Source: Candidatus Gemmiger stercorigallinarum | GTDB lineage: Bacteria > Bacillota > Clostridia > Oscillospirales > Ruminococcaceae | Assembly: GCA_019119495.1 (NCBI GenBank) | Contig: DWWX01000040.1 | Span: 1 to 37,408 of the forward strand | Reading direction: 5' to 3' | DNA length: 37,408 nucleotides | Shown here: piece by piece, positions 1,010 to 13,177 of the stretch | How positions within the stretch are numbered: the stretch's first letter is position 1 | Layout: each line of letters opens with the position of its first letter | Translations under genes and position numbers: made by a program | The notes under the pieces: model-generated | The model's input: the letters and a program-made list of their open reading frames with translations, nothing else | Told to the model about the DNA's origin: nothing | Database searches by the model: none

Positions 1010-2290
1010 ATGGCTGCCAAAACCATTTACACCGTCGTTGTGGCCGACGACGAGGACGTGCTGCGCGAGGCCGTATGCACCATGGTGCCCTGGGAGGAGC
1101 TGGGGTTCCGCCTGGCGGGCAGCGCCAGCAACGGGCTGGACGCCCTGCAGCTGGTGGAAAAGCTGGAGCCGGACCTGCTGCTGACCGACATCCGCATGCC
1201 GTTCATCTCCGGCATCGAGCTGGCCCGGCAGGTGCGGGAGGTCCGCCCTTCCATGAACATTGCCTTTTTGAGCGGCTTTGACGATTTCGAGTACGCCAAG
1301 CAGGCCATCCAGTACAATATCATCAGCTATATGCTCAAGCCGCTGACCATTGACGGCATTGCGGCCGAGCTGAAAATCATCCACCAGAAAATCGACGCGC
1401 AGTTTGCCATGTTCCGCCAGGCGGCCGACGCTGACCGCCCCCGGCAGGACGCCATGGCCGCTTTTTTGATGCCGCTGGTGCTGGACGAATATGCCGAGGC
1501 CGACCCCGGCACCCGGCAGTACGCCCTGGACTGCGGCCTGCTGCGCGACGCCGACGACCACCCCAACTACGTGGTGATGGTCTCCACCCTGCAAAGCGAG
1601 GACGGCGCCGGCTGCACCACCCCCACCTTTGTGAGCACGGTGGACACGCTGGCCGTCAAGTATCTGCGCGGGGCCAGCTTTTTCTCCGGCGGCCGGGTGG
1701 TGACGGTGCTGCTGGGCAACCGGTCGGATTTTGACGAGTACCTGCACATCCTGGCCGAGGAGATCGCCCAGATCGCCGCCAGGGTGCTGGGCCGGCGGTG
1801 CCGCATCGGGGTAAGCCGTGCCGCGGCCGAGCTGGACGTGCTGCACACCGCCTACCGCGAGGCGATGGACGCCCTGCGCCAGGCCGACCCCGCCGAGGGC
1901 GGCATCCAGTTTGTGGGCGATTTGATGCCTGCCGTAAAGGGCGGCAGCGGGCTGTGCCAGCGGGCGCTGGAAGCCATCGACCAGCATTATATGGAGGCCG
2001 ACCTTTCGCTGGTGTCGCTCAGCGGCATGCTGGACGTAAGCCCCAACCACCTGAGCGCCTGCATCAAAAAGTATGCGGGCGAGACCTTTATCAACATCCT
2101 GATCGGCAAGCGGATGGAAGCCGCCCGCAGCCTGCTGGAGACCACCGACCTGCGCATCCAGGAGGTGGCCGGCCGCTGCGGCTATACCGACCAGCACTAT
2201 TTCAGCTACTGCTTCAAAAAATACAGCGGCGAGTCCCCCAACGCACTGCGCCGCCGTCTCCGTGCCCGGCCGGCGGAGGAAGCGCAATGA
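1010..2290 (+). CDS. YesN-type response regulator, AraC-family output domain
   Basis: This 426-residue protein has an N-terminal receiver domain (residues 1-125). It shows the acidic pair D13/D14, phospho-acceptor D60 in LLLTDIRMP and the lysine in MLKPLT. A middle region of unknown fold follows, then two AraC-type helix-turn-helix motifs at the C-terminus (about 320-420, LSGMLDVSPNHLSACIKKY and IQEVAGRCGYTDQHYFSYCF). Such proteins are activated by their YesM-type kinase and usually switch on nearby sugar transport genes. GAAAGGAG lies before the ATG. The stop overlaps the start of the kinase gene (ATGA), so the two are translationally coupled. Its likely target is the mgl operon beginning at 5241; this is inference. 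Confidence 0.93.
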   Translation: MAAKTIYTVVVADDEDVLREAVCTMVPWEELGFRLAGSASNGLDALQLVEKLEPDLLLTDIRMPFISGIELARQVREVRPSMNIAFLSGFDDFEYAKQAIQYNIISYMLKPLTIDGIAAELKIIHQKIDAQFAMFRQAADADRPRQDAMAAFLMPLVLDEYAEADPGTRQYALDCGLLRDADDHPNYVVMVSTLQSEDGAGCTTPTFVSTVDTLAVKYLRGASFFSGGRVVTVLLGNRSDFDEYLHILAEEIAQIAARVLGRRCRIGVSRAAAELDVLHTAYREAMDALRQADPAEGGIQFVGDLMPAVKGGSGLCQRALEAIDQHYMEADLSLVSLSGMLDVSPNHLSACIKKYAGETFINILIGKRMEAARSLLETTDLRIQEVAGRCGYTDQHYFSYCFKKYSGESPNALRRRLRARPAEEAQ

Positions 2291-4005
2291 GCCGCCCGAC
2301 CCGCACCGGGCTGCGCATCACCACCATTCTGGTGTCGATGGTGGTGGGCGTGGTGGCGGTGATCCTGGTGGTGTGCATCGCGCTGTTTCTGGACCGGTAC
2401 CGCAGCGCCATCGTGCAGAACGCCCGCACCAGCAGCGCCCAGGCGGTGTCGCAGGTATCCAACACCGTGTCGAACTACCTGCAAGACATGAGCCAGGCCA
2501 TGCAGCTGGTCATCGGTTCTCTGGGCGAAAGCCCGGACAGCCGCGACGAACTGCTGGACGCCTTTTTGAATTTCCGCCCCGACGTGGTGGCGGTGACCAG
2601 CTACGACGAGTCCGGCGCTCTGCTGGACTGCTGGGCGCTGGACCGCCAGCCCAAGGAGAATATCGTCCAGAACCTGTCCTTTGACGCCGAAAAGGCCCAA
2701 AGCGGCGTCCGCTTTTTTGTCAGCGCCCCCCATGTGGAGACCATCTTTGAGAGCTACTACCCCTGGGTGGTGACCATGACCGCCCGGCCGGACAGCGGCA
2801 GCGGTGCGGCCTGGGTATCGCTGGACCTGAGCTTTTCCAACCTGTCCAGCTACATCAACAACGTGGGCATCGGCACGCGGGGCTACTGCTTCCTTATGGA
2901 TGACGAGGGCAACATCATCTACCACCCCCAGCAGCAGCTGATCTACTCCGGCCTGAAGGAGGAGGACACCGCCGCGCTGGCCGGGCTGTCCGACGGCGTG
3001 TACGACGACGACACCGTCATCACCTGCGTCAACAGCGTGGGCGACAGCGGCTGGCGCGTGGTGGGCGTCAGCTATGTGGACGAGCTGGTGGACCGCAATG
3101 TGACCGAGATGGTCCGCCTGTCCGCCCTGCTGGGCGTGGTGGTGCTGGCGGCGGCAGTGCTGACCAGCTGGCTGCTCAGCCGGCTGCTGGGCCGGCCGCT
3201 GCGCGGCCTGGCCGACGCCATGGAGAGCTTTGAGCAGGACGCCGACCGCTTTGCCTACCGGCCGGTGGGCGGCACGCGGGAGGTGCAGGAGCTTTCGGCC
3301 TCCTTCGGCCACATGGTGGTGCGCATCCAGCAGCTGATGACCACCGTGCGGCAGGAGGAGATCAACCTGCGCAAGACCGAGCTGAAAGCCCTGCAGGCCC
3401 AGATCAACCCCCACTTTTTGTACAACACCCTGGACTCCATCGCCTGGATGTGCGAGCAGGGCAAGACCGCCGACGCGGTCAAGATGGTCCATGCGCTGGC
3501 AAGGCTGTTCCGCATCAGCATCAGCAAAGGGCACGAGCTGATCCCCATCCGCAAGGAGATCGAACACGCCGAAAGCTACCTGCAGATCCAGGAGTACCGC
3601 TACAAAAATCAGTTCACCTACCACTTTGACGTGGACCCCGGCTGCCTGGACTACCTGTGCAACAAAATCACGCTGCAGCCCATCATCGAGAACGCCATCA
3701 ACCACGGCCTGGATTTGATGGTGGAGGACGGGCACATTGAGGTGCAGGTCTGCCCCGACGGCGGGGACATCCTGTTCCGCGTTACCGACAACGGCGTGGG
3801 CATGAGCGCCGAACAGGTGGACGCCATCCTGCAGAACAATTCCGGCAACCGCACCGGCATCGGCATCAAAAACGTCAACGACCGGCTGCAGATCTATTTT
3901 GGCAAAGAGTACGGCCTGCGCATCCACAGCGTCCCCGACGAGGGCACCTGCGTGGAGATCCGCATGCCCAAGGTGACCAAGGAGGCAGATTATGAAGCGA
4001 AGTAA
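2287..4005 (+). CDS. YesM/LytS-type sensor histidine kinase
   Basis: This 572-residue membrane kinase has a first transmembrane helix at about 10-34, an extracellular Cache-like sensor region to about 275, a second helix at about 278-300 and then a HAMP linker. The His_kinase domain follows, with phospho-acceptor His376 in QINPHFLYNT, and then a HATPase domain (N box LQPIIENAINHG, G boxes DNGVGM and GIGIKNVNDRL). It phosphorylates the regulator encoded immediately upstream. The gene overlaps that regulator by 4 bp and the downstream binding-protein gene by 14 bp, so the three products are probably made in step. The sensor domain may receive its signal from the neighbouring sugar-binding lipoprotein. 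Confidence 0.93.
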   Translation: MSRPTRTGLRITTILVSMVVGVVAVILVVCIALFLDRYRSAIVQNARTSSAQAVSQVSNTVSNYLQDMSQAMQLVIGSLGESPDSRDELLDAFLNFRPDVVAVTSYDESGALLDCWALDRQPKENIVQNLSFDAEKAQSGVRFFVSAPHVETIFESYYPWVVTMTARPDSGSGAAWVSLDLSFSNLSSYINNVGIGTRGYCFLMDDEGNIIYHPQQQLIYSGLKEEDTAALAGLSDGVYDDDTVITCVNSVGDSGWRVVGVSYVDELVDRNVTEMVRLSALLGVVVLAAAVLTSWLLSRLLGRPLRGLADAMESFEQDADRFAYRPVGGTREVQELSASFGHMVVRIQQLMTTVRQEEINLRKTELKALQAQINPHFLYNTLDSIAWMCEQGKTADAVKMVHALARLFRISISKGHELIPIRKEIEHAESYLQIQEYRYKNQFTYHFDVDPGCLDYLCNKITLQPIIENAINHGLDLMVEDGHIEVQVCPDGGDILFRVTDNGVGMSAEQVDAILQNNSGNRTGIGIKNVNDRLQIYFGKEYGLRIHSVPDEGTCVEIRMPKVTKEADYEAK

Positions 4006-4951
4006 AGCCCTGGTCTGCGCCCTGCTGGCCGCCTGCCTGTGCGCCTGCACCGCCGCCGCGCCGGCCGGCGCCCGCCACCGGGTGGCCATTGTGGCCAAGT
4101 CCACCCGCACCGAGTTCTGGCTTTCGGTGTTTGCGGGGGCGGAGGCCGCCGCCACCGAGTACAACATCGAGCTTTCCATCACCGGCCCGGAGACCGAGGA
4201 GGACTACGAGACCCAGAACCGGATGGTGGCCGACGCGGTGGCCGACGGCGCCGAGGCGCTGGTCTTTTCGGCCATCGATTACGAGAACAACGCCGCCGCC
4301 ATCGACGCCGCGGCCGAGAGCGGCGTGCGCATCGTCGCCATTGACAGCAACGTGGATTCCAGCGCGGTGCAGACCTACATCGGCACCGACAACTACGCCG
4401 CCGGCCAGATGGCCGCCCAGGCCGCGCTGGACGGCGTGGAGGAGCAGCTGACGGTGGGCATCGTCAACTACGACGTCAGCAGCGCCAACGGCCAGGAGCG
4501 GGAGCGGGGCGCGGTGGACGCCTTTGAGCAAAGCGGCCGCGCCCGGGTGGCAGCGGTCATCAATACGCTGGCCGAGGCGGCCCGGGCGCAGGCGGACACC
4601 GCCGCCATGCTGGCGGAGCATCCGGAGATCAACGTGCTGCTGGCCTTCAACGAGCCCACCAGCGTGGGCGCAGCCGACGCCGTAGAGGGCATGGGCCTGG
4701 CGGAGGAGGTGTTCCTGGTGGGGTTCGACTCCAATGTAGCCACCATCGACGGGCTGCAGGACGGCACGGTGGACGCGCTGATCGTGCAGAACCCCTACGC
4801 CATGGGCTACCTGGGCGTTGAGAGCGCCTACCGGCTGCTGTCCGGCCAGGGCGGCAGCCCGGAGGCAACGGTGGATACCTCGACCCGGATCGTAAATCGT
4901 GACAATATGTTTACAATGGACAGTCAAAAAGCCCTTTTTGCCTTTGAATAG
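3992..4951 (+). CDS. Sugar-binding lipoprotein, probable accessory sensor
   Basis: This 319-residue periplasmic-binding-protein-like lipoprotein has a signal peptide and lipobox LCAC with the lipidated cysteine at residue 19. The mature part has the two-lobe fold of the ribose/galactose-binding family (Peripla_BP_4): RVAIVAKSTRTEFW, then DGAEALVFSAID, YIGTDNYAAGQMAA and LVGFDSN. It overlaps the kinase gene by 14 bp and has no ATPase or permease partner of its own. The nearby ABC transporter already has a binding protein. A role as ligand detector for the kinase is therefore more likely than import, as in the described XylFII-LytS-YesN arrangement of Clostridium. The ligand is probably a monosaccharide but is not determined here. 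Confidence 0.87.
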   Translation: MKRSKALVCALLAACLCACTAAAPAGARHRVAIVAKSTRTEFWLSVFAGAEAAATEYNIELSITGPETEEDYETQNRMVADAVADGAEALVFSAIDYENNAAAIDAAAESGVRIVAIDSNVDSSAVQTYIGTDNYAAGQMAAQAALDGVEEQLTVGIVNYDVSSANGQERERGAVDAFEQSGRARVAAVINTLAEAARAQADTAAMLAEHPEINVLLAFNEPTSVGAADAVEGMGLAEEVFLVGFDSNVATIDGLQDGTVDALIVQNPYAMGYLGVESAYRLLSGQGGSPEATVDTSTRIVNRDNMFTMDSQKALFAFE

Positions 4952-5035
4952 CCGTTTTTTTGTGTGTTTTGTACAAATTGTTCCCCGTTGATTTCGTCAT
5001 ATTGTCATGTTTGGATAAAATTTTGCCCATCTTTC

Positions 5036-5049
5036 GGTGAAATTTCACC
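5036..5049. promoter_or_regulatory. Perfect 14-bp palindrome beside the mglB promoter
   Basis: GGTGAAATTTCACC is a perfect palindrome ending five bases upstream of the predicted -35. It lies in an AT-rich stretch (4952-5090) that otherwise holds no gene. The position fits an activator or repressor site. Palindromes are more typical of LacI-type regulators than of AraC-type ones, so the binding protein is unknown. Confidence 0.5.
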
Positions 5050-5054
5050 TTGTT

Positions 5055-5083
5055 TTTACACGAGTTTTCCGGTAGCATAATAT
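5055..5083 (+). promoter_or_regulatory. Promoter of the mgl operon
   Basis: -35 TTTACA (5055-5060), 17-bp spacer, -10 TAATAT (5078-5083). Transcription would start near 5090, leaving a structured leader of about 150 nt before the mglB start at 5241. Confidence 0.7.
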
Positions 5084-5102
5084 ATGACGAGGGACAGCGG
5101 GC

Positions 5103-5118
5103 GCTGCCGGCCGGCAGC
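5103..5118 (+). repeat. Leader palindrome
   Basis: GCTGCCGGCCGGCAGC is a perfect 16-bp palindrome at the very start of the predicted mglB leader, about 13 bases after the expected transcription start. Confidence 0.5.
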
Positions 5119-5154
5119 CGCCGTGCTGCTGTCCCGACCATACTTCATCATTGT

Positions 5155-5201
5155 GCGCAGCAGGCGCGCCTGCTGCGCCGAAGGGAACTTCCCTTCGGCG
5201 C
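5155..5201 (+). repeat. Two overlapping perfect inverted repeats in the mglB leader
   Basis: The first is a perfect 24-bp palindrome at 5155-5178 (half site GCGCAGCAGGCG). The second is a 27-bp inverted repeat at 5175-5201, with arms GCGCCGAAGGGAA and TTCCCTTCGGCGC around one central C. They share GCGC at 5175-5178, so in RNA these four bases can pair leftward or rightward but not both. A smaller stem AGGAC/GTCCT follows at 5203-5214, close to the ribosome binding site. It could be a dispersed palindromic element or a genuine leader structure; only one copy was seen in the window. Confidence 0.6.
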
Positions 5202-5240
5202 GAGGACGGGTCCTGCCGCCGCACACAGGAGGGAACACAT

Positions 5241-6419
5241 ATGAGAAAAGCACTTGCACTGACCCTGGCAGCCGCCATGGCCCTGAGCCTGGCCGCCTGC
5301 ACCGGCAGCACCACCTCGGAGAGCAGCTCCGCCGCGGCGGACAGCTCCAGCTCTGCCGACACCTCGGAGACCGGCGACGGCAGCGAAGCCGCCTCCACCT
5401 CTTCCGGTGATTTTGATGTCACGGTCCTGTACTATGCGTATTCGGACACCTACATTTCCAGCGTGCGTACCGCCTTGGACGCTGACCTGACCGCAGCCGG
5501 CATCACCTACACCGACTACGACTCCAACAACAGCCAGACCACCCAGAACGAGTACATCGACACCGCCATCGCCAACGGTACCGACCTGCTGATCGTCAAC
5601 ATGGTCACCTCCGGCTCCTCCGACACCGCAAACTCTATCTGCGACAAGGCCGAGGCCGCCGGCATCCCCGTCATCTTCTTCAACCGCGCCGTTGAGGAGG
5701 ACGACAATGCAGGCGCCGTGCTGGGCACCCGCTCCAACATCGCCTTTGTCGGCACCGACGCCCCTGAGGCCGGCCACATGCAGGGCGAGATGATCGGCAA
5801 CTACCTGATCGAGAATTACGATGCGGTTGACCTGAACGGCGACGGCGAGATCTCCTACGCCATGTTCATGGGCGACGCTTCCAACGTCGAGGCCATCTAC
5901 CGCACCCAGTACTCCGTCGAAGATGCCAACGCTATCCTGACCGAGAACGGTTACCCCGAACTGGTCTACTTTGACTCCACCAACGAGAACAAGTACCAGC
6001 TGGATATGACCGGTGCATGGAGCGCCCAGGCCGCTATGGAGTATATGCAGACCAACCTGGCTTCTTACAGCGAGGCCAATGGCAACATGATCGAGCTCAT
6101 CATCTGCAACAACGATAACATGGCCGAGGGCTGCATCACTGCCCTGCAGGCTGCCGGCTACAACAACGGCGAAGGCACCACCACCATCCCCGTGTTCGGC
6201 GTTGACGCCACCGATTCCGCCCAGCAGCTGATTGCCAACGGCACGATGACCGGCACGATCAAGCAGGATGCCGAAGGCATGGCCGAGTGCATTGCCCTGC
6301 TGGCCACCAACGTGATGAACGGCGAGGATCTGCTGGCCAACACCGATTCCTACACCAAGGATACCGCCAACAGCCTGGACAACAAGATCTTCATTCCTTA
6401 CCAGGAGTACACCGGCTGA
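5241..6419 (+). CDS. mglB: Galactose/glucose-binding lipoprotein of an ABC importer
   Basis: This 392-residue protein has a signal peptide and lipobox LAAC (Cys20), then a Ser/Ala-rich linker to about residue 55 that tethers the binding domain to the membrane. The domain matches MglB-type proteins. DLNGDGEIS (197-205) is the EF-hand-like calcium loop characteristic of the galactose/glucose-binding protein, and NNDNMAEGCITAL and PVFGVDATDSA line the expected sugar-binding lobes. CAGGAGGG precedes the ATG by 8 bases. It is the first gene of the operon and is followed by a terminator before mglA, a usual way to make more binding protein than transporter. The calcium loop supports galactose or glucose, but the exact sugar is an inference. 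Confidence 0.88.
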   Translation: MRKALALTLAAAMALSLAACTGSTTSESSSAAADSSSSADTSETGDGSEAASTSSGDFDVTVLYYAYSDTYISSVRTALDADLTAAGITYTDYDSNNSQTTQNEYIDTAIANGTDLLIVNMVTSGSSDTANSICDKAEAAGIPVIFFNRAVEEDDNAGAVLGTRSNIAFVGTDAPEAGHMQGEMIGNYLIENYDAVDLNGDGEISYAMFMGDASNVEAIYRTQYSVEDANAILTENGYPELVYFDSTNENKYQLDMTGAWSAQAAMEYMQTNLASYSEANGNMIELIICNNDNMAEGCITALQAAGYNNGEGTTTIPVFGVDATDSAQQLIANGTMTGTIKQDAEGMAECIALLATNVMNGEDLLANTDSYTKDTANSLDNKIFIPYQEYTG

Positions 6420-6459
6420 TCAAAACCAAATAACTCCGCACGCTGAAACAATGTAACCG

Positions 6460-6495
6460 GGGCGGCTGCTGTGTAGCGCAGCAGCCGCCCTTTTT
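6460..6495 (+). terminator. Intra-operon terminator between mglB and mglA
   Basis: A perfect 12-bp stem GGGCGGCTGCTG/CAGCAGCCGCCC with a 7-base loop is followed directly by TTTTT (6491-6495). No promoter is obvious between it and mglA, so it probably lets through only part of the transcription. Confidence 0.85.
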
Positions 6496-6574
6496 GGTAA
6501 AGGCGGTGCAGTCCTGCCCCGGTCCGCGGCGGCAGGACCTTCCGCTTCAAATCTGAGAAAAAGGAGGGCTATGC

Positions 6575-8074
6575 ATGGGCGAAGAGGTTTTGCTGCAAAT
6601 GAAAAACATCTCCAAATCCTTCCCCGGCGTCAAGGCACTGGACCGGGTCTCGCTGACCGTCCGCAAGGGCACCGTCCATGCCCTGATGGGCGAGAACGGC
6701 GCTGGCAAGTCCACACTGATGAAATGCCTTTTTGGCATTTATTCCAAGGATGAAGGCAGCATCCTGCTGGAAGGCCGCGAGGTCAACTTCAAAAACAGCA
6801 AGGAGGCGCTGGAAAACGGCGTTGCCATGGTGCACCAGGAGCTGAACCAGGCGCTGAAACGCAGTGTTATGGACAACCTTTGGCTGGGCCGCTACCCGCT
6901 GATCGGCGGCGTCATGGTCAACGAGCGCAAAATGTACGAGGACACCGTCCGCATCTTCAAAGAGCTGGAGATTGACGTTGACCCCCGCCGCATCATGAGC
7001 ACCCTGCCGGTATCCCAGCGGCAGATGGTGGAAATTGCCAAGGCAGTTTCGTACAATTCCAAGATCATCGTCTTTGACGAGCCCACCTCCTCGCTGACAG
7101 AGGAGGAAGTTGAGCATCTGTTCCGCATCATCAACATGCTGCGCGACCGCGGCGTGGGCATCATTTACATCAGCCACAAGATGGCCGAGATTCTGCGCAT
7201 CAGCGACGATGTCACCGTCATGCGCGACGGCACCTGGGTGGCCACCCGCCCTGCCAGGGAGCTGGACACCCCGACGATTATCAAGCTGATGGTGGGCCGC
7301 GAGCTGAGCAACCAGTTCCCGCCCAAAACCAACAAGCCCGGCGACGTCTACCTGGAGGTCGAGCATTTGACCGCCAAGTATTCGATGTTAAAGGATGTCT
7401 CCTTTACCGCACGCCGCGGCGAGATTGTCGGCCTGGCCGGCCTGGATGGTTCCGGCCGCACCGAAACTTTGGAGAACATTTTCGGCGTCGCCACCCGGAA
7501 GTCCGGCACGGTCAAGCTGGACGGCAAGGTCTGCCGCAACCGCAATTCCCGCGAGAGCATCAAAAACGGATTTGCCATGCTGACCGAGGAACGCCGTGCC
7601 ACAGGTATCTTTGGCATTTTGAACATCCGTGAAAATACCGTTATTTCCAGCCTGAAAAAACACCTGCGCGGCGGCATTATGCTGAGCAACGCCAGCATGA
7701 GGAAGGATACCCAGTGGTCCATTGACACCATGCGGATCAAGACCCCCAGCCAGGAAACCAAGATCCGCAGCCTGTCCGGCGGCAACCAGCAAAAGGTCAT
7801 CCTGGGCCGCTGGCTGTTGACCGACCCCAACGTGCTGCTGCTGGATGAACCCACGCGCGGTATCGACGTCGGCGCCAAGTACGAGATCTACCAGCTGATC
7901 ATCGACCTGGCCAATCGCGGCAAAACCGTGCTGATGGTCTCTTCCGAAATGCCCGAACTGTTGGGCGTGTGCGACCGCATCCTGGTCATGTCGGGCGGAC
8001 GCCTGGCCGGCGAGGTGGATGCCCGCAGCACCACCCAGGAAGAGATTATGACACTGGCTGCAAAATACGTATAA
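6575..8074 (+). CDS. mglA: Sugar ABC importer ATPase with two nucleotide-binding domains
   Basis: This 499-residue protein has the two fused ATPase domains typical of the MglA/RbsA (CUT2) family. Domain one has Walker [10 protein letters not shown] (39-47), a weakened signature [11 protein letters not shown] and Walker [12 protein letters not shown]. Domain two has a degenerate Walker A (GLDGSGRTE, without GKT), which is normal for this family, an intact signature LSGGNQQK and Walker [12 protein letters not shown]. It would power uptake of the sugar delivered by the upstream binding protein through the permease encoded 16 bp downstream. AAGGAGG sits 7 bases before the ATG at 6575; the ATG at 6571 is out of frame. 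Confidence 0.93.
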
Positions 8075-8090
8075 CAGGGAGGAACCATCC

Positions 8091-9176
8091 ATGAAGGCAA
8101 TCGCCAATTTGAAACAGGGCATGGCAGAATTCAAAGCGATGGACGCCAGGGACAAGCGCAGCAAGGTCGTTGATACCCTGCTGAACAACGCCATCTACAT
8201 TCTGCTGATCATCTTTGTCGTCTTTACTGCCGTACAAAATCCCAACTTTCTGATGCCCAGCTCGCTGGTCAACATCGTCAGCCTGGCGGCTTCCTCGCTG
8301 CCTACTGCGCTGGGCATCGCCGGCTGTATCGTCCTGACCGGCACCGACCTTTCGGCCGGCCGCGTCGTCGGCCTGACCGCCGCCATCTCGGCCGCACTGC
8401 TTCAGGCGTCCGACTGGGCCAACAAAATGTTTGACACCTTGCCCGAAATTCCCATTCCCGTGGTGCTGCTGGCTGTCATTCTGGTGGGCGGCATCATCGG
8501 CCTGGTCAACGGCTTCTTTGTTGCCAAGTTCAGCCTGCATCCCTTTATCGTCACGCTGGCCACGCAGCTGATCGTCTACGGCCTGTTGCTGGAATTCTAT
8601 ATGCTCAACGGCAACAACGGCCAGCCGCTTTCCGGCCTGAGCGATACCTACCGCAACTTTATCACCGGCACCATGTTCCGCATTCCCACCGGCAACGGCC
8701 AGAGCGTTGCCGTACCCTGGTATGTATTGTACGCCGTGATTCTGGTGGCGATCATGTGGTTTGTGTGGAACAAGACCACCTTTGGCAAAAACATGTTTGC
8801 CGTCGGCTCCAACCCGGAAGCCGCCAACGTCTCCGGCGTCAATGTTTTTATGACCACCATGCTGGTGCACACGCTGGCCGGCTGCATGTACGGCATCGAA
8901 GGTTTTATCGAGTCTGCCCGTATCGCATCCAACACCGCCAACACCGGCCTGAACTACGAGTCTGATGCCATCGCGGCCTGCGTCATCGGCGGCGTTTCGT
9001 TCGTCGGCGGCACCGGCAAAATCAGCGGCATCGTGCTGGGCGTCTTTATCCTGCGCATCATTTTTGCCGCGCTGACCATGCTGTCCATCAGCGGCAACAC
9101 CCAGTACATCATCAAGGGCCTGATCATCCTGATCGCCTGCTCCATCGATATGCGCAAGTACCTGGTCAAGAAGTAA
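8091..9176 (+). CDS. mglC: Sugar ABC importer permease
   Basis: This 361-residue polytopic membrane protein of the BPD_transp_2 family (MglC/RbsC type) has about ten hydrophobic segments. Recognisable stretches include GIAGCIVLTGTDLSAGRVVG near the first third and ACVIGGVSFVGGTGKI near the end, both conserved in ribose/galactose permeases. It forms the channel for the MglA ATPase. AGGGAGG lies before the ATG, and the gap to mglA is 16 bp. A soluble stretch of about 40 residues precedes the first membrane helix. Confidence 0.92.
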   Translation: MKAIANLKQGMAEFKAMDARDKRSKVVDTLLNNAIYILLIIFVVFTAVQNPNFLMPSSLVNIVSLAASSLPTALGIAGCIVLTGTDLSAGRVVGLTAAISAALLQASDWANKMFDTLPEIPIPVVLLAVILVGGIIGLVNGFFVAKFSLHPFIVTLATQLIVYGLLLEFYMLNGNNGQPLSGLSDTYRNFITGTMFRIPTGNGQSVAVPWYVLYAVILVAIMWFVWNKTTFGKNMFAVGSNPEAANVSGVNVFMTTMLVHTLAGCMYGIEGFIESARIASNTANTGLNYESDAIAACVIGGVSFVGGTGKISGIVLGVFILRIIFAALTMLSISGNTQYIIKGLIILIACSIDMRKYLVKK

Positions 9177-9200: not shown

Positions 9201-9935
9201 ATGAACGATACACCCGAAAAGAACAACGACCTTGCCCCCGCCCCCGCCGCCCCGGCGGAAAGCGCCCCGTCCCGCGGGGACTTCCCGGACGGTGCTGCAG
9301 CGCCGTCCGCAGCGGAGGGAAGCTCCCCGGCCAGCCAGGATGAAGCGCCTCCGGCCGAGAACCCCATGATCAAAAAGCGGTGGTTCGGCCGCGGCATTTA
9401 CGGCAGCAAGGATGTACCCATCCGGATTTTGGACGGCATCATCGCCGCCATGATTGTTGCCGCCGTGGTGCTGACCATCTGGGGCGCCGCCCACAATGGT
9501 TTCAGCATCACCTTTAATACCGGTGTGGATGACATTACCGTGCCGGCGCAGACCGTGCTGCACGGCGAGCTGGTCACCGAGCCGGAAGCGCCGCTGCGTC
9601 CCGGTTACAACCTGGTGGGCTGGAGCACGACCCCTGACCCGGAGGTCAACCTGTGGGATTTTGATTCCTACGAGGTGGAGGGCGATTTCACGCTGTATGC
9701 CGTGTGGGAACCCGCCTCCTTCCCGGTCCGGTTCGACCTGGATGGCGGCACAGTAGACGGCTGGAGCGAGGTTGACCCCATCACCGTGACCTACGGCCAG
9801 GCCTATGGCGCGCTGCCCGTCCCGGAAAAAGAAGGCGCTGTCTTTGCCGGCTGGATGTACAGCGGCCAGATCATTACAGCAGACTCCACCGTCACCATGA
9901 CCGGCGAGCATGTGCTGACCGCCTTGTGGGAGTAA
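9201..9935 (+). CDS. Membrane-anchored protein with InlB-type repeats
   Basis: This 244-residue protein has three parts. A Pro/Ala/Ser/Glu-rich cytoplasmic tail covers residues 1-58. One transmembrane helix lies at about 76-96, preceded by basic KKRWFGRG, so the C-terminus should face outward. Two tandem repeats of the Listeria-Bacteroides (InlB B-repeat) type follow. Repeat one (about 101-170) contains RPGYNLVGWST and FTLYAVWE. Repeat two (about 172-244) contains VRFDLDGGTVDGW, GAVFAGWMYSG and HVLTALWE. These repeats normally sit on cell-surface proteins. It begins 24 bp after mglC and precedes the operon terminator, so it is very likely co-transcribed with the sugar importer. No enzymatic motif is visible and its role is unknown. 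Confidence 0.85.
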   Translation: MNDTPEKNNDLAPAPAAPAESAPSRGDFPDGAAAPSAAEGSSPASQDEAPPAENPMIKKRWFGRGIYGSKDVPIRILDGIIAAMIVAAVVLTIWGAAHNGFSITFNTGVDDITVPAQTVLHGELVTEPEAPLRPGYNLVGWSTTPDPEVNLWDFDSYEVEGDFTLYAVWEPASFPVRFDLDGGTVDGWSEVDPITVTYGQAYGALPVPEKEGAVFAGWMYSGQIITADSTVTMTGEHVLTALWE

Positions 9936-9968: not shown

Positions 9969-10020
9969 CTGCCCCCGCGGCCTGCAGAATGCAGCAGCCG
10001 CGGGGGCAGTTCGTCTGTTT
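9969..10020. terminator. Terminator between the mgl operon and the convergent activator gene
   Basis: A perfect 13-bp stem CTGCCCCCGCGGC/GCCGCGGGGGCAG (9969-9981 with 9997-10009) is followed on the plus strand by the mildly T-rich TTCGTCTGTTT. It lies between convergent genes and may serve both, though neither side has a strong T-run. Confidence 0.65.
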
Positions 10021-10066: not shown

Positions 10067-11020
10067 TTATTTCACCTTGATGGCGCCGCGCTCGCAGCGG
10101 TTGCCCCAGGCGTCGATCAGCCTGCCGTCCCGGTAGACCAGGATACGCTCGCAGTTGTTGGCGCACTGGCCGCAGTTGCTGGCGCGGGTGACGAACTCCA
10201 TGTCCGCCACGTCGGCGTCGAAGGGCGCCTCCTGCCCGCTGCGGCGCGCCAGGATCGCCACGCCGAACGCGCCCATCAGGTGGCCGTTGGGGTCCACGGT
10301 GACCGGCAGGCCGGTCTCCTTCTCAAAGGCGGCGCGGACGCCGGCGTTTTTGGACACGCCGCCCTGGAACACGATGGGCCCCACGATCTTTTTGCCCTTG
10401 CCCACGTTGTTCAGGTAATTGACGACGACGGCGCGGCACAGCCCCGCGATGATGTCGGTCTTGGAATAGCCGATCTGCGCCTTGTGGACCAGGTCGCTCT
10501 CGGCAAAGACGGTGCAGCGGGCGGCGATGGCGGCGGGGTTCTTGCTTTGCAGCGCGATCTCGCCAAATTCCTCCACCTCCACGCCCAGGCGGCGGGCCTG
10601 GCTGGACAAAAAGCTGCCGGTGCCGGCGGCGCACAGCGTGTTCATGGCGTAGTCCACCACCACGCCGTTCTCGATCAGGATGATCTTGGAGTCCTGGCCG
10701 CCGATCTCAAAGATGGTGCGCACGTCGGGGTACAGCGTGGTGGTGCCCACCGCATGGGCGGTGATCTCGTTTTTGACCACCACGGCGCCCAGCATGGTGC
10801 CCACCAGCTTGCGGGCGCTGCCGGTAGTGCCGGCGGCCACGATCTGGTATCTGCCGGCGTCCAGCTGGCTTTCCAGCGATTTTGCCAGCCGCTTGGTGGC
10901 GCCGATGGGGTCGCCCTCGGTCCACAGGTAGTCGCTGGCCAGAATGTTGTTGTCTGCGTCGAGCACCACGCCCTTGGTCGAGATGGAGCCGATGTCAACG
11001 CCCAGATATGCTTTCTCCAT
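10067..11020 (-). CDS. HgdC-like ATP-dependent activator (2-hydroxyacyl-CoA dehydratase activase family)
   Basis: This 317-residue member of the BcrAD/BadFG ATPase family (COG1924) has the phosphate-binding motif DIGSISTK (9-16) of the actin/hexokinase fold. Cys130 (LCAAGTGSFL) and Cys169 (AARCTVF) are 39 residues apart, exactly the spacing of the two cysteines that hold the subunit-bridging [4Fe-4S] cluster in Acidaminococcus HgdC. Such proteins push an electron into a partner iron-sulfur protein at the cost of ATP. The core ends near residue 260. An extra tail of about 50 residues carries four more cysteines (CGQCANNC at 283-290 and C309), suggesting a second metal site. It is the last gene of a three-gene minus-strand operon, 49 bp after the preceding gene. 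Confidence 0.88.
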   Translation of the reverse strand: MEKAYLGVDIGSISTKGVVLDADNNILASDYLWTEGDPIGATKRLAKSLESQLDAGRYQIVAAGTTGSARKLVGTMLGAVVVKNEITAHAVGTTTLYPDVRTIFEIGGQDSKIILIENGVVVDYAMNTLCAAGTGSFLSSQARRLGVEVEEFGEIALQSKNPAAIAARCTVFAESDLVHKAQIGYSKTDIIAGLCRAVVVNYLNNVGKGKKIVGPIVFQGGVSKNAGVRAAFEKETGLPVTVDPNGHLMGAFGVAILARRSGQEAPFDADVADMEFVTRASNCGQCANNCERILVYRDGRLIDAWGNRCERGAIKVK

Positions 11021-11069
11021 GGTTTGCAGTTCCCTCTTTTTGCGTGTCTTTTGGTGATGTCGTCCTCTT

Positions 11070-12167
11070 TTACCTGCGCTGCTGCTTGCGCATCGAGATC
11101 ATGTCGTAAAAGGCCTCCAGCCGGGTGTTCAGGCCGGTCTCGCTGGTCTGCGTGTCAAAGCTCAGGTACAGGATGGGGATATGGTAGTCGGCGCTGATAT
11201 TCTGCAGCGCCGGGATGGCGTCGATCTCCGGCGTGCAGCCGGACGACTTGACGTGGATGATGCCGTCAAAGCCGGATCTTGCATAGCGCAGCGCCGCGTC
11301 GATGGTGCCCATGGCGGTGGCGCCCATGTCGTAGTGGGCGTAGTCCTTGATGCGGGGCAGCATCTTGCGGCTGCGGTAGTGGTACAGGCAGTTGGAAATG
11401 TCCATCCACCGGTCCACCAGCACCCCCATGCGGGCCAGCTCGCGCTCGATGTCGTGGTTGGAAAAGGGGTCCATGACGGTAAAGAACTCCCCCACCACGC
11501 CCACGCGGATGGGGTGCTTGGGCATGTCGATCTGCTGCGCCTCGATGGCTTTGATGGTGGCCTTGCGCAGGCGGCCGATATCCCGGATGGTGTCGGCCTT
11601 GCGCAGCTGCTCCAGCCAGGAGGTGCGGATGTTTTCCAGCAGGCGCGGGTCGCCGGCAAAGCCGATGCGGCGGCGCACCATCGCGTCGATCTCGTCGATG
11701 GCGTTGACCATGCGCACCGTTTCCAGCGCCGCGGTGGTAAAGCGTTTCATGTCCAGGTCGGGCTTGAGCTGGCGGAACTCGTCCACAAAGGTTTTTGGAT
11801 CGCTGAAATCGCAGGCGGCAAAGTTGATAAAGCGGATGTCCTTGCCCAGGTCCCGCAGCAGCTGCTCGTGCAGCTCGCCGTAATAGCCCAGGCGGCAGGT
11901 GCCGCCGGTCTGGATCAGCGTGTCGGCCCCCAGCTCGATGCACTCAAGAAAGCACCCCAGGTTCAGCTTGAAGGGCGCGCAGACCGAGTCGGGCGAGTAG
12001 CGGGCGCCCACCTCCAGCGTGCGGCGGGTCATCCGCGGCGGCATGACAAAGGTCATGCCCAGGCCCTTTTGGATCAGGTGCTCCATGGCGATGCCGTAGC
12101 TGGCAAACTGCGGGAAGGTGATCTTTGCATCGCGGGGCAGCGGCGCTTGTACATTGGTCACAGGCAT
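11070..12167 (-). CDS. Dehydratase-like subunit related to HgdB/BcrC (COG3580-like)
   Basis: This 365-residue protein resembles the uncharacterised COG3580 relatives of 2-hydroxyglutaryl-CoA dehydratase subunits. A cysteine-rich segment includes SVCAPFKLNLGCFLECIELG and TGGTCRLGYYGE (Cys63, 72, 76, 91). A C-terminal SSGCTPEIDAI plus FDTQTSETGLNTRLEAF stretch matches the end of the HgdB fold. These features suggest it binds an iron-sulfur cluster reduced by the neighbouring activator. The ATG at 12167 overlaps the end of the upstream gene by 10 bp, indicating coupled translation. In many Firmicutes similar segments are fused with an activator in one very long protein; here they are separate. 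Substrate and reaction are unknown. Confidence 0.75.
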   Translation of the reverse strand: MPVTNVQAPLPRDAKITFPQFASYGIAMEHLIQKGLGMTFVMPPRMTRRTLEVGARYSPDSVCAPFKLNLGCFLECIELGADTLIQTGGTCRLGYYGELHEQLLRDLGKDIRFINFAACDFSDPKTFVDEFRQLKPDLDMKRFTTAALETVRMVNAIDEIDAMVRRRIGFAGDPRLLENIRTSWLEQLRKADTIRDIGRLRKATIKAIEAQQIDMPKHPIRVGVVGEFFTVMDPFSNHDIERELARMGVLVDRWMDISNCLYHYRSRKMLPRIKDYAHYDMGATAMGTIDAALRYARSGFDGIIHVKSSGCTPEIDAIPALQNISADYHIPILYLSFDTQTSETGLNTRLEAFYDMISMRKQQRR

Positions 12168-13081
12168 ACCGTACCGTCCTTTCTCAGATGCAGGATGTCG
12201 ATAAAGCTCTCGATGCGGGTCTCCATGCCGGCGGTGGCGTCCTGCCCGTCCAGCGTCATGGACAGGATGGGGATGTTTTTCAGCCGCCGGGTCAGGATCT
12301 CGTCGGTCATCGAGTCCGGCCCGCAGGAAAAACTGGACAGCAGCACGATGCCGTCCACCTTGTCGTGCAGCTGCACGGCGGCGCCGGCCAGCTCCCGGTT
12401 GACCATCCAGGGCATGGTGTCGGTCAGCTCGCAGCCGGCCTGCCAGGCGGCGTCCCGGTCCACCCAGTCGGCGGGGATGGCAATGGCATGGTTTGCCTCG
12501 ATGGCGTCCACCACCGGCCTGCCGATGTAGCGGTCGTAGATGTTGTAGGCGTGGCCGCAGACCAGCACCTTCAATTCCGGCCGGGCCAGCGCGGCGTCCA
12601 GCTTGCGGGCGTTTTCGGCCGCCGCCTGCTGTTCGGCCTGCTTGGCCAGCAGATAGGCGTTGAAGGTCTGCTGCTTTTTGAACCCCAGCTTTTTGCCCAG
12701 CTTGGCAAAGGCTTCCATCTCGCTGTCGCCGCGGCGCACCGCGATGTCGCAGGTCACCAGGCGCACGCCCTCGCTGCGGAAGGTGTTGTACACCACGTCG
12801 GGCAGGGCGCGGAATTTCAGGCAGAACTCTTTGTCGCGGCCCATGTCGGCCATGCGGGGCACAAACACAAAATCGCACTTGTCCAGCAGCCAGGCCACAT
12901 GCCCCAGGTAGATCTTGGCCGAAAGGCAGCTCTCGTCGATGGCGTAGTGGGTGCCCTGGTTCAGGATGGCGCGGTCGGTCCGGGGGCTGACGACGACCTC
13001 GCAGCCCAGCGAGGAGAAGAAGGTTTTCCAAAGCGCGCCGTAGCGGTAATAGTACAGCGCGCGGGGGATGCCGATCCTCAC
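12158..13081 (-). CDS. Dehydratase-like subunit related to HgdB/BcrB (COG3581-like)
   Basis: This 307-residue protein is the first gene of the operon. It starts with RIGIPRALYYYRYGALWKTF and continues DESCLSAKIYLGHVAWLL, both typical of the COG3581/DUF2229 group. It ends with SSFSCGPDSMTDEIL and DGQDATAGMETRIESF, the C-terminal signature shared with 2-hydroxyacyl-CoA dehydratase subunits. Cys52, Cys69 and the CGPDS cysteine are candidate cluster ligands. The GTG at 13081 is preferred because AAAGGGAGG stands 6 bases upstream; an in-frame ATG at 13105 would place that site inside the coding region. It probably pairs with the next product, and together they would be the electron acceptor of the HgdC-like activator. 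Confidence 0.75.
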   Translation of the reverse strand: MRIGIPRALYYYRYGALWKTFFSSLGCEVVVSPRTDRAILNQGTHYAIDESCLSAKIYLGHVAWLLDKCDFVFVPRMADMGRDKEFCLKFRALPDVVYNTFRSEGVRLVTCDIAVRRGDSEMEAFAKLGKKLGFKKQQTFNAYLLAKQAEQQAAAENARKLDAALARPELKVLVCGHAYNIYDRYIGRPVVDAIEANHAIAIPADWVDRDAAWQAGCELTDTMPWMVNRELAGAAVQLHDKVDGIVLLSSFSCGPDSMTDEILTRRLKNIPILSMTLDGQDATAGMETRIESFIDILHLRKDGTVCL

Positions 13082-13177
13082 GGTATGCCTCCCTTTCTGT
13101 ATCAATTCATGCGGTTTGAAAAAGCTCTGTTCCGCTCAAAGAGAAAGGCTCCTGCCTTCTCTCAAAGCTAAATTGGT

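Follow-up and report, generated by a model that had tools for sequence, protein, structure and literature searches.

Three-gene relatives of the fused plasmalogen synthases in Gemmiger and other anaerobes: a candidate ATP-driven reductase of lipid acyl groups

Positions 10067-13081 of a contig from Candidatus Gemmiger stercorigallinarum (DWWX01000040.1, assembly GCA_019119495.1; the whole stretch of 37,408 nucleotides that was analysed is called the window here) encode a set of three proteins, D, R and A, on the minus strand. Our tentative reading is that D-R-A is an adenosine triphosphate (ATP)-driven, low-potential reductase, a separate-subunit sister of the plasmalogen synthase PlsA/PlsR and of the related protein Ger, most likely acting on the fatty-acyl carbonyl of a lipid. 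The evidence is computational and comprises the gene set, the folds, the conserved cysteines, the kinship to fused PlsA-type proteins and, in some lineages, an association with fatty-acid genes. An original prediction, made from the sequence alone, had described a stand-alone three-gene reductase-like system here; its coordinates are correct, and the roles it gave to the genes agree with Pfam and TIGR00241 matches. Conservation of gene order and spacing in 92 of 104 loci, together with invariant cysteines, speaks against a chance arrangement. The reading frames of R and D overlap by 10 nucleotides. The features concerned are:

12158-13081, minus strand: D, a DUF2229 (PF09989) subunit, Red1-like, 307 residues, with a GTG start at 13081
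11070-12167, minus strand: R, an HGD-D-like subunit, Red2/PlsR-like, 365 residues
10067-11020, minus strand: A, an HgdC-type ATPase activase, 317 residues
10094-10174, minus strand: the four-cysteine tail of A (residues 283-309)

A matches Pfam BcrAD_BadFG (2.4e-46), exceeds the cut-off of TIGR00241 (acyl-coenzyme A (CoA) dehydratase activase) and matches the activator of 2-hydroxyglutaryl-CoA dehydratase in the PDB (1hux, 5.9e-41); the match to crystallised activators stops ahead of the four-cysteine tail. D matches DUF2229 at 9.7e-46, with an HGD-D match slightly below the cut-off, and R exceeds the cut-offs of both families (DUF2229, 31.8 bits against 29.4; HGD-D, 29.8 bits against 28.4). 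Neither D nor R was hit by an NCBIfam model at an E value of 0.001, and PDB searches with the single sequences gave nothing useful except one weak match of R to HadC. The AlphaFold models have mean predicted local distance difference test scores (pLDDT) of 87.3 for D and 86.4 for R. In Foldseek searches of the PDB, the top hits of D were HadC (3o3n_B), DCCP (6eno and 7yyl) and MbdON (9g87_B), and those of R were BzdNO (8s02_B), HadC (3o3m_B) and DCCP (7yyl); with template-modelling scores of 0.5-0.6 and root-mean-square deviations of about 6-9 Å over whole chains, these matches speak for the fold level only. As modelled, D and R are two reductase subunits of the HadBC/BzdNO fold and thus belong to the benzoyl-CoA reductase/2-hydroxyacyl-CoA dehydratase (BCR/HAD) superfamily, in which PlsA/PlsR has also been placed (PMC12838417). 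The original proposal that a reductase of this superfamily is here split into assignable parts is supported.

The residues expected to hold iron-sulfur clusters are strictly conserved. Cys 52, 87 and 253 of D are invariant in 112/112 split and 30/30 fused sequences, and Cys 63, 91 and 311 of R in 106/106 split sequences; the fused rows have the cysteines of R in 17/17, 17/17 and 6/17 cases, the remaining 11 being gapped at the third position. (Split rows were counted at a profile coverage of at least 90% and more than 150 bits, fused R rows at 50% coverage.) In A, Cys 130 and 169, which are of the cluster-ligand type, and the four cysteines of the tail are found in 89/89 split sequences; the 31 rows of A counted as fused include locus L133, whose A sits in a long open frame. 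Profile alignment places the third invariant cysteine of D, and that of R, on a cysteine of HadC and DCCP. In the benzoyl-CoA reductase BzdNO, the [4Fe-4S] cluster of BzdO has three cysteine ligands plus water or hydroxide, and the [8Fe-9S] double-cubane cluster of BzdN takes six cysteines in one subunit (PMC11971306). Because D and R have three invariant cysteines each, as BzdO has, rather than six, D-R is predicted to hold two [4Fe-4S] clusters with an open site and no double cubane.

The original prediction had compared the set with a giant protein of many Firmicutes in which such domains are fused. The homology stands; the fusion itself is no unknown, since its domain order is that of PlsA/PlsR and Ger. 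Plasmalogen synthases consist of two activation domains followed by reduction domains, either fused or encoded as plsA-plsR (PMC12838417, PMC9702350). PlsA either joins two activase domains and Red1 in about 980 residues, with PlsR separate, or holds everything in about 1400 residues; known cases are CPE1194/1195 of Clostridium perfringens and single-gene forms of facultative anaerobes. Ger, a PlsA homologue from Thermotoga maritima (Tmari_0479) and Desulfatibacillum alkenivorans, converts esters to alkyl ethers (PMC11150832, PMC13274423, PMC8788747). PlsA/PlsR and D-R-A have in common the activase, DUF2229 (Red1) and HGD-type (Red2) modules, the six reductase cysteines and the four-cysteine stretch after the activase; unlike PlsA/PlsR, D-R-A consists of three separate genes with one activase and lacks the fused Act1-Act2-Red1 arrangement. 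Ger, likened to it here by architecture, differs in the same sense, being a single protein with two activation domains.

Profiles built from the split proteins recognise the fused ones. Those of D and A match over nearly the full length in all 30 fused loci, with medians of 106 and 195 bits, respectively, and that of R matches more weakly in 26 of the 30 (median 46 bits). The four-cysteine tail, present in 91 of 92 split A proteins (the exception, L131, lies close to a contig end), has its counterpart in the fused forms between the second activase domain and Red1; it was found by pattern in 24 of 31 and by eye in six more, the last row being without this region. The genome of the window itself also has the fused type: contig 20 (L175:3705-7992, minus strand) encodes a protein of 972 residues with two activase stretches and DUF2229, directly followed by a PlsR-like gene of 443 residues. 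In a Desulfotomaculaceae metagenome-assembled genome (MAG), a fused PlsA-type gene (1427 residues), a MarR regulator and a split D-R-A set stand in a row (L088:4870-12946). A fusion of D and R, hinted at by a frame of 694 residues, is not borne out by the reading frames of the loci.

In a tree of 125 D domains (a quick IQ-TREE run supported by the Shimodaira-Hasegawa-like approximate likelihood ratio test (SH-aLRT) only, with 14 of the 31 fused rows and without short loci already covered by longer ones), the 14 fused rows form one side of a branch with SH-aLRT 100 and length 1.9. The window falls among 93 split rows (itself and 92 others) on one side of another branch, also with SH-aLRT 100. 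D of the window thus does not group with the fused forms; split and fused proteins are separate clades.

The split set is common in related anaerobes and not special to the genome of the window. The comparison covered 104 loci, the window plus 103 others, two genomes being entered twice; genes in the relatives were called by a simple script. One scan of named genomes gave at least 554 relatives, of which the best 80 were kept, from Clostridia, MAGs of Bacilli and Coriobacteriia. D, R and A are all present in 93 loci, and in 92 of these, the window included, they follow in this order within a few kilobases; in the exception, L111, the three genes lie further apart. A (or R) is missing from 11 loci, five of which are truncated by the end of the contig; the other six (L096, L099, L110, L127, L149 and L162) have room downstream, yet no A was found. 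The nearest named relatives, with 83-88% identity in D, are MAGs of Gemmiger and Subdoligranulum. In the family of the window's genome, DUF2229 occurs in 124 of 148 genomes, mainly in long frames of the fused type; among the matches listed, four genomes have the split form (the window's, one congener and two others).

Split and fused forms often occur together. A class-level sample of 74 genomes, that of the window included, comprised 43 with the fused form and 31 with a split form of any type, that is, 18 with both, 25 with the fused form only, 13 with the split form only and 18 with neither; strong matches were counted, and two split genomes (G159, G189) entered on partial copies. The fused gene is present in 43 of 53 genomes known for this split type and in 40 of 71 class-sample genomes not known for it (Fisher p 0.004, uncorrected for relatedness and sampling). 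This comparison covered 40 of the 80 named genomes, picked by hand rather than at random, and counted G383 and G517, which have identical match places, as one genome.

Split D-R-A sets also occur in at least one additional class that is more distant (L075-L084 and others), with about 30-36% identity in D; several genomes have two copies.

Genes adjoining the set point to fatty acids in some lineages. After omission of L032 and L069, duplicates of L087 and L146, a co-directional gene of at least 110 residues lies within 150 nucleotides upstream in 33 of 102 loci, and an equivalent downstream gene in 22; the description 'stand-alone' thus mostly applies to the relatives too. Pfam scans covered 31 of the upstream genes (without L085 and L138) and 21 of the downstream ones (without L085). 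DegV was found in eight upstream genes and AMP-binding, PP-binding and NAD_binding_4 in four each; other non-overlapping upstream families reached at most two among the matches listed, and no downstream family recurred in more than two of the 21 genes scanned. DegV occurs in 8 of 35 adjacent upstream co-directional genes against 2 of the remaining 1340 genes of these loci; for AMP-forming ligases the figures are 5 of 35 and 3 of 1340, one of the latter three being the other half of the ligase of L097. The DegV proteins (FakB-type) stand directly upstream of D in L065, L068, L105, L107, L115, L123, L129 and L132. In L065, L115, L123, L129 and L132 they are preceded by a gene of one and the same cluster, which is MarR-like in the two scanned (L065 and L115). 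FakB proteins use a DegV domain to bind fatty acids, which are phosphorylated and enter lipid synthesis (PMC12288450).

The fifth upstream ligase is a separate AMP-forming protein of 573 residues (L091); the other four belong to ligase-carrier-reductase sets that immediately precede D-R-A and have AMP-binding, PP-binding and NAD_binding_4 domains:

L094, 6797-9997: ligase-carrier-reductase protein
L095, 6614-9982: ligase-carrier-reductase protein
L103, 6744-9965: ligase-carrier-reductase protein
L097, 6494-9982: ligase-carrier-reductase protein in two frames

ElbD, a Myxococcus ether-lipid protein, has similar domains in another order (PMC9131029). At E values of at most 1e-60 and with two candidates scored per genome, 1 of 293 class-level genomes yielded a full-length copy of the three-domain protein, with no D, R or A within the surrounding 20 kb; its occurrence next to the split set therefore exceeds the background rate.

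For the clusters of D-R-A, its oligomeric state, the path of its electrons and the reaction that it catalyses (substrate and product), we infer the following scheme. A would form a homodimer with one bridging [4Fe-4S] cluster, hydrolyse ATP and pass single electrons to a D-R heterodimer, in which each subunit would carry a [4Fe-4S] cluster bound by three cysteines, leaving one iron site open. There, the fatty-acyl carbonyl of a lipid would be reduced, with an ester being converted in vinyl- or alkyl-ether type chemistry. PlsA/PlsR and Ger convert glycerolipid esters to vinyl or alkyl ethers and gave ether lipids upon expression in Escherichia coli (PMC12838417, PMC13274423, PMC11150832). Because they have the fused architecture and this activity, lipid ester reduction is the closest characterised reaction, and ester-to-ether chemistry is the most economical guess for D-R-A, which would then add a second ether-lipid-type activity beside PlsA. 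The original interpretation is supported in part; 'wholly unknown' was too wide a term for the substrate.

Several observations weigh against a lipid-ester reductase akin to PlsA. R resembles PlsR only weakly by profile, and the fused genes owe their PlsA label to architecture. A long branch (1.9) separates the fused rows from the split ones, so that the substrate may differ. The split set occurs without a fused gene found in 10 of the 53 genomes, many of them MAGs and perhaps incomplete. With regard to gene context, 69 of 102 loci are without a co-directional gene close upstream, and the neighbours in the window itself (MATE, mgl) are silent on lipids and on the substrate. The DIP2/FAAL-like domain of the ligases, which would indicate fatty-acid specificity, scored slightly below the Pfam cut-off. 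Finally, the DegV and ligase contexts correspond to two changes each on the D tree and hence to two independent associations apiece, not to thirteen.

The same gene contexts speak for the likeliest of the alternatives, although it too is unlikely: instead of a glycerolipid ester, D-R-A might reduce a fatty acyl group that comes either from an acyl carrier protein or, in the form of a fatty acid or an acyl phosphate, from a FakB-like protein, to an aldehyde, an alcohol or another product. The recurrent upstream partners, namely DegV, the 573-residue ligase and the ligase-carrier-reductase proteins, belong to classes that bind or activate free acids; they are, however, missing from most loci. 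Moreover, the closest characterised kin, PlsA and Ger, use a glycerolipid ester, and reduction of a thioester would need no ATP-driven radical reductase. A broader proposal, which we regard as doubtful, sees in the split set another ATP-driven fatty-acyl reductase, the second in Firmicutes and Coriobacteriia and with a distinct biochemistry. This enzyme would take its acyl group from the FakB-type or ligase-carrier-reductase partner and lead to an undescribed reduced or ether lipid, side by side with PlsA in many gut anaerobes and in place of PlsA in some genomes.

It is improbable that D-R-A acts like DCCP, reducing or detoxifying a small molecule such as an aromatic or dietary compound. DCCP and its activase DCCP-R share the fold and the ATP-driven activation with D-R-A, and DCCP is among the nearest folds of both subunits; many carriers of the split set are gut MAGs by title, Eubacterium ramulus is one carrier, and the ligase partners could activate non-lipid acids. 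On the other hand, DCCP is a homodimer whose [8Fe-9S] double cubane takes six cysteines per subunit (PMC11971306), whereas D and R are two different subunits with three invariant cysteines each; membership in the DCCP group was dropped on account of the cysteines.

A true 2-hydroxyacyl-CoA dehydratase (HgdABC/HadIBC-like) or a CoA-ester reductase, with CoA-transferase genes elsewhere in the genome, is quite improbable as well. HadBC/HadI and 2-hydroxyglutaryl-CoA dehydratase act on CoA esters in a CoA-transferase context. They belong to the same superfamily as D-R-A by fold and activase, and share the position of a cluster cysteine and the HgdC type of the activase. Profile matches of D and R to solved HAD and DCCP chains are, however, confined to the last 60 or so residues (19-28 bits), and the four-cysteine tail lies beyond the activator match; the subunits do not clearly group with a characterised dehydratase, a grouping that would have refuted the original prediction. 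A scores far below the cut-offs of the class I benzoyl-CoA reductase equivalogs BcrA, BcrD and BzdQ (123, 70 and 75 bits against 578, 313 and 380). As had been noted originally, the 26 other window proteins scanned (a subset of the window's genes) did not include a CoA-transferase, an acyl-CoA dehydrogenase or a fermentation enzyme, and no CoA-pathway gene recurs among the listed neighbour families of the relatives. CoA-dehydratase membership was dropped on these grounds. It is very improbable that the set is merely a paralogue, redundant or in decay, that has no function proper to it: no A was found in six of the 104 loci despite downstream room, and the genes of L111 are more widely spaced, yet the cysteines are invariant over 112, 106 and 89 sequences, the gene order is kept in 92 loci from several classes, and the split set is found without a fused gene in 10 of 53 genomes.

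The reading of D-R-A as a separate-subunit sister of PlsA/PlsR and Ger also bears on a recent report of additional PlsA homologues in Bacillota 'lacking the activation domain', whose role that paper calls unclear (2026; PMC13274423). Judged by this description, they are probably the same kind of gene as D. The comparison suggests that their activase is encoded separately, two genes further downstream; the activation domain would be split off rather than missing, because A comes third in the set in 92 of 104 loci. The D-type gene thereby becomes part of a conserved unit of three genes that includes an activase and, in some lineages, has partners of the fatty-acid type. With A, D and R separate, piecewise purification and reconstitution become possible, unlike with a fusion of 1400 residues. 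If an ether lipid or another reduced lipid is indeed made, this would be an extra, unassigned step in the membrane chemistry of common gut anaerobes. In the part of the open-licence literature searched, no title had the three-gene split set as its topic.

In the window, the nearest neighbours of the set are a MATE transporter upstream and a convergent sugar-transport operon of the mgl type. Two minor features flank the three genes:

13088-13093, minus strand: GGGAGG, a ribosome-binding-type sequence ahead of the GTG start of D, read directly from the sequence
9971-10007, no strand assigned: a G+C-rich inverted repeat, terminator-like by eye alone, between A and the convergent gene 9201-9935

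The convergent gene at 9201-9935 encodes a protein with two Listeria-Bacteroides repeat (Flg_new) stretches. Beyond it, positions 1010-9176 encode a two-component system and, after it, a pair of sugar-binding proteins together with mglA/mglC-like genes, an arrangement that resembles a sensed sugar importer. Further window proteins were identified as QueT, SecA, AzlC, ApbE, a carbon-nitrogen hydrolase, an ABC importer, a PEP-utilising protein, a patatin and DnaJ. A link of D-R-A with MATE was rejected, as this gene is directly upstream only in the window and in L032/L087 (one congener, entered twice). Links with RNase Y/YmdB or with fructose-bisphosphate aldolase were likewise set aside, each being limited to three or four related loci.

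Elsewhere, RNase Y and YmdB genes lie close to D-R-A in three genomes of one family (L073, L074 and L076), for which the search found no fused PlsA-type gene. DUF2229 also exceeded its cut-off in two control genomes, Thermus composti and Deinobacterium chartae, both of which belong to aerobic genera.

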